64,000 nucleotides of DNA from Lysobacterales bacterium (lineage in GTDB: Bacteria > Pseudomonadota > Gammaproteobacteria > Xanthomonadales > SZUA-36). The notes beneath the pieces were generated by a model. The model was not told the DNA's origin and did no database searches. It was given only the letters and a program-made list of their open reading frames with translations. The translations under genes were made by a program, and so were the position numbers. Below, piece by piece: positions 21,047-31,446 of this stretch. Each line of letters starts with the position of its first letter. The first letter of the stretch is position 1. The stretch is from positions 1 to 64,000 of the forward strand of contig JAKITK010000004.1 of NCBI GenBank assembly GCA_021648125.1. Reading direction: 5' to 3'.

Positions 21047-21070
21047 TGCGTAGCGCCTTTAATGACTAAT

Positions 21071-21100
21071 TATGACCGGTTATGACCGGTTATGACCGGT
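21071..21100 (-). promoter_or_regulatory. Triple 10-bp repeat, probable toxin-antitoxin operator
   Basis: The word TATGACCGGT occurs three times in a row without change (21071-21080, 21081-21090, 21091-21100). Each copy contains the palindrome ACCGGT, so binding sites recur once per helical turn. The position just upstream of the antitoxin start fits an autoregulatory operator for the Phd/YefM-PIN complex. Binding is inferred. Confidence 0.65.
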
Positions 21101-21193
21101 TTACTTTATTATAGGCGTTAATTTATTGGGGTCAAGTGGGTTTTGGGGGTTTTTATTAGCCGGCGACTGCTTTTAACGGGATAATTGTTGGGT

Positions 21194-21407
21194 CACTGCT
21201 GTCCCGTTAACTGTTCAAGCATGAATTCTGGGTGCTCGCCTGAGACCTCCACCCGCATGGATGCGGGTGAAGAGCCCCCATGGATGGGTTTACGGCGTGT
21301 CTCAGGCGAGCACCCGGGATTCATGTCCTCGGTGACAAAAACTGGTGTGCGCCAAACGATAGTAAGGGTTATCATCAGCTAGGCACAAAGTTAACGGGAC
21401 AGCAGTG
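21194..21407. mobile_element. 214-bp MITE-like element with 9-bp target duplication
   Basis: The ends are perfect 19-bp inverted repeats: CACTGCTGTCCCGTTAACT at 21194-21212 and its complement at 21389-21407. TTGTTGGGT flanks it on both sides (21185-21193 and 21408-21416), a 9-bp target duplication. Inside is a 27-bp inverted pair with two mismatches (21220-21246 with 21299-21325) and a tight hairpin CACCCGCAT-GG-ATGCGGGTG (21250-21269). No transposase fits in the space, so it would move with the enzyme of a related full-length element. Overlapping frames inside it on both strands come from the palindromes. Confidence 0.85.
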
Positions 21408-21459
21408 TTGTTGGGTATATAATTAATTTATGACATGTGTGGGATTTTTTGAAGCAGTG

Positions 21460-21543
21460 ACGCGTGGGCATAAATACCCACCCTACCGGGATTGGGGGTG
21501 AGTATTGGGCTTTGGGGCGCGGGCATTTATGCCCATCCACGCC
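21460..21543. repeat. Inverted pair of dispersed palindromes (copy B)
   Basis: Two copies of the GTGGGCATAAATGCCCAC-type palindrome in opposite orientation, at 21460-21486 and about 21518-21543, slightly degenerate. They lie between the MITE-like element and the end of secA, where they could also stabilise the secA mRNA 3' end. Confidence 0.75.
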
Positions 21544-31255: not shown

Positions 31256-31438
31256 TGTCCTCTGAGGTGTTTGCCAGTGGCAACGCACGATACCTTGTCC
31301 CTATTTATCGACCTCGGGGTCGCAAGTCCACTACCAGTGTGCATGTTCGCGCAAGCGAAAAGCCTTAGGTGTTGGTTAGCCTCCCCACCTGGACCCTTTC
31401 GGTTCAAGGTCAGCGTTGTTTCAGCGGCACCCTGGAGG
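31256..31438 (+). ncRNA. ssrS: 6S RNA
   Basis: About 183 bases between zapA and fau, the standard ssrS site. The closing stem pairs CCTCTGAGGTG near the 5' end with CACCCTGGAGG near the 3' end. Family hallmarks are present: GAAAAGCCTTAGG, GTTGGTTAGC and the late hairpin GGACCCTTTCGGTTCAAGG. 6S RNA mimics an open promoter and holds sigma-70 RNA polymerase in stationary phase. Ends are estimated from the stem and may be off by a few bases. Confidence 0.9.
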
Positions 31439-31446
31439 GCACTGCT

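Follow-up and report, generated by a model that had tools for sequence, protein, structure and literature searches.

The locus considered here lies in a window of 64,000 nucleotides (the whole stretch of Lysobacterales DNA that was analysed) and raises two questions: what kind of element occupies the space between SecA and, at the opposite flank, a PIN-domain protein and a Phd/YefM antitoxin, and whether the large hairpin inside it has a role of its own. A reading of the letters alone, made without database searches (the sequence-only reading), had described a complete MITE-like element with perfect 19-bp terminal inverted repeats (TIRs), a 9-bp target-site duplication (TSD), a nested 27-bp arm pair and no coding capacity. 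Read base for base, the sequence contained each of these parts where that reading had placed them: the element is 214 bp long (21194-21407) and non-coding, with no open reading frame of 80 amino acids or more inside it. Its features are as follows.

21185-21193, no strand: left TSD, TTGTTGGGT, 9 bp
21194-21212, plus: left TIR, 19 nt, 100% complementary to the right TIR
21213-21219, plus: short spacer 5' of the hairpin
21220-21246, plus: left arm of the long hairpin, 27 nt, 93% complementary to the right arm; covariation
21250-21269, plus: stem-loop 1, loop ATGGAT at 21257-21262 (GGA)
21274-21296, plus: stem-loop 2, loop ATGGAT at 21280-21285 (GGA)
21299-21325, plus: right arm of the long hairpin, 27 nt; covariation
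21320-21327, minus: GACATGAA motif, 81 bp from the right end
21328-21388, minus: variable leader from the motif to the right TIR, 61 bp
21389-21407, minus: right TIR, 19 nt
21408-21416, no strand: right TSD, TTGTTGGGT, 9 bp

The element is short, non-coding and bounded by TIRs, as a MITE is. The 19-bp end pattern had two matches in the window at up to three mismatches, against 0.02 expected. Its folding energy was -122.5 kcal/mol, with a z score of -11.3 against shuffles. Close to the element, the plus strand has a single promoter-like match, at 21396-21423; it begins within the right TIR and points away from the hairpin, and at the window copy there was no upstream gene on the hairpin strand.

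The perfect ends had been taken as a sign of recent movement, and a genome search for the 19-bp end had been proposed as the check. In the organism's own genome (a 111-contig assembly of 3.23 Mb), the end was found at 29 places with up to three mismatches, compared with 0 for the reversed pattern, and these places included seven paired copies: C109 (the window copy, 214 bp), C8 (214 bp), C73 (215 bp), C71 (118 bp), C22 (160 bp), C51 (167 bp), and C93 (219 bp). Exact 9-bp TSDs flanked C109, C8, and C71 and were absent from the other four; the remaining matches were single ends, some of them close to contig ends. C8 was 100% identical to the window copy across the element and had a 9-bp TSD of its own, ACCTGAAGT, a combination that fits recent movement. 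In two genomes of the same genus, G001 and G003, the element was absent from the secA-to-antitoxin intergenic region, and in G003 the left homology stopped inside the duplicated site (window position 21190). The right side in G003 was too altered to yield a clean empty site and consisted of other repeats and a RAYT-like open reading frame. With the identical second copy, the absence from two congeners, and TSD-flanked relatives elsewhere, the window element is well supported as a genuine, recently mobile MITE.

Several other features of the neighbourhood were observed. Three ATGACCGGTT-like repeats, perhaps an autoregulatory operator, lie at 21062-21101 between the start of the Phd/YefM antitoxin gene and a promoter-like site (21135-21108, minus strand), and the MITE is inserted just upstream of this region. 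A palindromic, REP-like repeat around GGGCATAAATGCCCA occupies 21461-21487 and 21521-21535 and has dozens of copies in G001 and G003; the RAYT-like open reading frame of G003 was recognised by reading the sequence of the equivalent intergenic region (L219, 3058-3606). At gathering threshold, Rfam matched only a 6S RNA in the window (31256-31442, plus strand).

An exact end-pattern scan of genome contigs recovered at least 119 stretches with related elements. Among the matches listed, the sources were mostly gammaproteobacterial metagenome bins, together with cultured strains of Nitrosomonas, Psychromonas, and Zhongshania and a few bins labelled otherwise. Both flanks could be read for 40 non-redundant short pairs among these matches; their 9-bp flanks were identical in 19 cases, alike at eight of nine bases in 12, and less alike in 9, so that the TSD has a constant length of 9 bp in several copies, as in a MITE family. 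Searched against the plasmid collection, the window element matched nothing, and viral contigs contained no instance of the exact end pattern. The interiors of the relatives varied widely, comprising two-loop hairpins, modules that are termed REP-like in this analysis, or almost nothing (elements of 106-111 bp). One internal motif was fixed: GACATGAA, which was picked after the elements had been inspected, stood 79-84 bp from one end exactly in 25 of 44 elements and with at most one mismatch in 32, compared with 0 and 0 at 60-65 bp, 0 and 0 at 100-105 bp, and 1 and 3 at 40-45 bp. In the exact-end scan, it occurred at 79-84 bp with at most one mismatch in 20 of 118 cases, compared with 1 of 131 at an outside control position. 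Members with other interiors also had it at a nearly equal distance. These observations suggest a MITE family in which the ends and the internal motif are constant and the cargo is exchangeable. Two loci, L179 (4186-4441 and 7730-7839) and L162 (6484-6594), hold minimal elements of 110-111 bp and a similar one with a REP-like module directly after GACATGAA, an arrangement that looks like a cargo slot. By eye, a 468-bp element with variant ends (L290, 160-627) was seen to contain two hairpins, with GACATGAA about 80 bp from one end.

The hairpin of the window element, as folded, is a stem with 27-bp arms that is topped by two stem-loops, both with GGA in the loop. A rule that required ANGGAN loops and paired arms picked 42 hairpin heads from MITEs and other genomes, of which 41 were aligned; in this first set, which is not blind to pairing or GGA, 93.8% of pair cells were paired, compared with 62.6% in shuffles, and both sides had changed in 25 of 28 pairs. 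Sliding the partners by one column lowered pairing to about 40%. The arms of the 14 MITE heads alone were 97.1% paired, against a shuffle mean of 66.4% and maximum of 70.4%, and among six MITE rows compared arm identity was 14-62% and head identity 63-94%. A covariance model built from the first set (R1) gave 56 hits in 42 fetched loci, 51 of them distinct; in this second set, likewise not blind to pairing or GGA, 97.5% of cells were paired and all 51 rows had GGA in both loops. Among the 37 rows that were not identical to any row of the first set, 97.8% of cells were paired and GGA stood in both loops in all 37. In the arms, G-U pairs outnumbered A-C on the GGA strand: the counts were 36 against 11 for the first set, 28 against 2 for the second (binomial 2e-4 and 4e-7, respectively, with rows that are not fully independent), 18 against 1 for the 37 new rows, and 12 against 2 for the MITE rows. 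Arms that diverge between lineages yet stay complementary, with this G-U excess on one strand, point to selection on an RNA, and on this comparative evidence the hairpin has probably been selected as such.

R1 had hits in at least 34 of 61 genomes, with the most in G057 (at least 73); at least 3 were in the own genome, all three within the MITE, and at least 25 in G002, and among the matches listed there were none in G001 or G003. From G002, 20 stretches were fetched (15 around listed hairpin hits and 5 around DNA matches), of which 19 had at least one MITE end and six had both; exact 9-bp TSDs flanked three of these six, two others agreed at 8 of 9 bases, and one had none. Three of four hairpin loci fetched from G028 lay inside elements with a variant end, CACTGCTGTCC..., whose flanks were alike at 9, 8, and 8 of 9 bases. 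In contrast, the 16 loci fetched from G057 and G021 had no such MITE ends, and the inverted repeats around their hairpins were few, of 9 to 14 bases, and none had a 5- to 12-bp duplication. The hairpin therefore travels on these elements in some lineages, and in others it is dispersed in a different way. Two-GGA hairpins were also seen as divergent pairs roughly 100-530 bp apart (L042, L048, L055, L066, L068, L283, L285, L296, and L298), with, by eye, a terminator-like hairpin between the pair in L042.

Sense orientation downstream of genes was considered as a general rule for the hairpin, using mechanical open reading frame calls, and was rejected: it held for 20 loci from other genomes (one of G028 type), where the upstream frame was co-directional in 14 of 18 with a neighbour, and not for 18 MITE copies, where this was so in 5 of 17, with one copy entered twice, as L180 and as L263, and giving a different answer each time. 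The latter count speaks against read-through from neighbours as the general mode of the MITE copies. Their lying in either orientation to neighbouring frames would suit an ordinary MITE, moved by an IS4-type transposase, whose hairpin is carried along without meaning or RNA function, and so would the REP-like modules that other members hold in the same slot and the members with almost no module (106-111 bp). Such a reading is unlikely given the strong compensatory change, the GGA loops, and the G-U excess, and it does not sit well with the many hairpin copies in other genomes, which in part lack these ends.

The hairpin may also be something other than a CsrA-type site: a structure that terminates or insulates transcription, or a cruciform extruded from the DNA. 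The very stable fold is compatible with this, as is the frequent position of the other-genome copies between convergent frames (the downstream frame was convergent in 12 of 18); yet no T-run terminator was scored at the element, a terminator has no need of GGA loops, and a G-U excess on one strand speaks against a cruciform. This alternative is rated as doubtful. An attC or REP identity for the hairpin was set aside in view of the TIRs and of a double-loop head that covaries, and matches to miRNA families were taken as chance.

For the preferred reading, an RNA hairpin carried as cargo, the nearest known type is TwoAYGGAY (Rfam RF01731), which PMC4333381 treats as an RNA of unknown function with proposed CsrA binding. 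The window hairpin has the arrangement that marks this type, an outer stem enclosing two hairpins whose loops resemble AYGGAY, and scored 22.4 bits (E 0.12) against a gathering cut-off of 43; a MITE-borne relative tested alone reached 39.4 bits (E 3.4e-5), also below 43. RF01731 had hits in 16 of 61 genomes and none in the own genome or its congeners. At 30 RF01731 loci, R1 hit seven, four with matching position and strand (L193, L194, L201, and L203, of which only L193, a weak hit, is independent, since L194, L201, and L203, like L216, belonged to the R1 training set) and three elsewhere in the locus, and it gave no hit at the other 23; conversely, 12 R1 hairpin loci had no RF01731 hit at E 0.01. 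Because of the scores below cut-off and the partial overlap of the two models, the hairpin is termed TwoAYGGAY-like and is not filed as a member. If transcribed, the plus strand would display a long stem bearing two GGA stem-loops at a spacing of 23 nt. The likeliest predicted role of such an RNA is to bind a CsrA/RsmA dimer, and each insertion would then add a potential CsrA site or decoy. The own genome encodes CsrA; that the hairpin binds a CsrA-type protein is a tentative model, with somewhat less than an even chance.

The means of movement was sought among elements of insertion-sequence size. Five such pairs with matching ends (1271-1275 bp) were found among the matches listed, and three of them (1273, 1274, and 1275 bp; L109, L110, and L178) had exact 9-bp TSDs and differed from the 19-bp TIR by 0 to 2 mismatches per end; the other two lacked an exact TSD. 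IS4-family transposases carry the signature Y-x2-R-x3-E-x6-K in the DDE domain. This signature was present in four of the five elements, with C in place of Y in L178, whose reading frame is broken. Both transposases that were scanned contained DUF4372 and DDE_Tnp_1 (Pfam PF14294 and PF01609) and scored 269 and 278 bits with the NCBIfam model IS4_1 (NF033592; cut-off 115), which places the partner transposase in the IS4 family. Plasmid-borne relatives of the transposase were all less than 60% identical, those named ISAbe18 being 46% identical.

The sequence-only reading had raised the possibility of an active parent transposase elsewhere in the genome and had looked towards a full-length element that shares the ends and the duplication. 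The latter exists in other bacteria; in the own genome, no intact transposase was found, and what was found were fragments, namely, one from the N-terminal part (C26), one from the C-terminal part (C71), and, at C89, the left end of an insertion sequence including a start codon, which does not bear out the former possibility. At E 1e-10, G001, G002, and G003 also gave no transposase match, G002 being the genome with at least 25 hairpin matches. Mobilisation in trans is inferred from the shared ends and TSD length: an IS4-type (DUF4372 plus DDE) transposase would recognise the 19-bp ends and move anything between them, and recognition of the ends alone would explain the wide differences among interiors. 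The match between the window element and the five larger elements was confined to the terminal 17-29 bp, with inner matches at E 0.16 or worse, and at the distance of GACATGAA the five had best matches with 4 or 5 mismatches. By this comparison, the interior has not arisen from the insertion sequence with these ends, in keeping with the earlier remark that the hairpin is odd for a simple deletion derivative. Movement by a different transposase that shares these ends, to which the lack of an intact IS4-type gene in the own genome and the variant-ended G028 elements (transposase search there empty at E 1e-10) might point, is improbable against three full-length IS4-type elements with the same 19-bp ends and exact 9-bp TSDs. 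That the element is mobile is all but certain, and its mobility by an IS4-type (DUF4372 plus DDE) transposase is very probable.

Taken as a whole, the window element is, with good likelihood, a 214-bp non-autonomous MITE that is mobilised by an IS4-type transposase and carries a TwoAYGGAY-like RNA hairpin as cargo. The analysis describes a MITE family with constant ends and internal motif and exchangeable cargo, and it connects a structured RNA of orphan type with a means of transposition, whereby the role of the TwoAYGGAY-like RNA becomes directly testable. A broader proposal is speculative, namely, that RNA modules which bind CsrA/RsmA are spread through genomes by transposition, as double-GGA cargo in the exchangeable slot of a MITE family that IS4-type enzymes mobilise. 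Under it, transposition bursts would add mobile CsrA sites or decoys and could rewire a global regulon, and part of the scattered distribution of the orphan RNA type would be accounted for. Within the portions of the literature that the search covered, no paper was found that connects bacterial MITEs with TwoAYGGAY or with CsrA sites.

Among known systems, the CsrA-sequestering RNAs CsrB, RsmY, and RsmZ likewise have GGA in hairpin loops, in pairs, according to PMC4333381, whereas the window-type hairpin, known here from sequence, has two loops only, a very long variable stem, and dispersed copies. TwoAYGGAY RNAs share with it the two stem-loops with ANGGAN loops, the enclosing outer stem, and a partial model score; unlike them, the window hairpin stays below the gathering score and sits inside a transposable element. 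With IS4-family insertion sequences that encode DUF4372, the window element shares the 19-bp ends and the 9-bp TSD common to L109, L110, and L178, and it differs in its lack of a transposase gene and in an interior unrelated to theirs. Like the window element, REP/RAYT repeats and other bacterial MITEs are intergenic, palindromic, and repeated; the window element is set apart from them by true 19-bp TIRs, a 9-bp TSD, and a covarying structured head.
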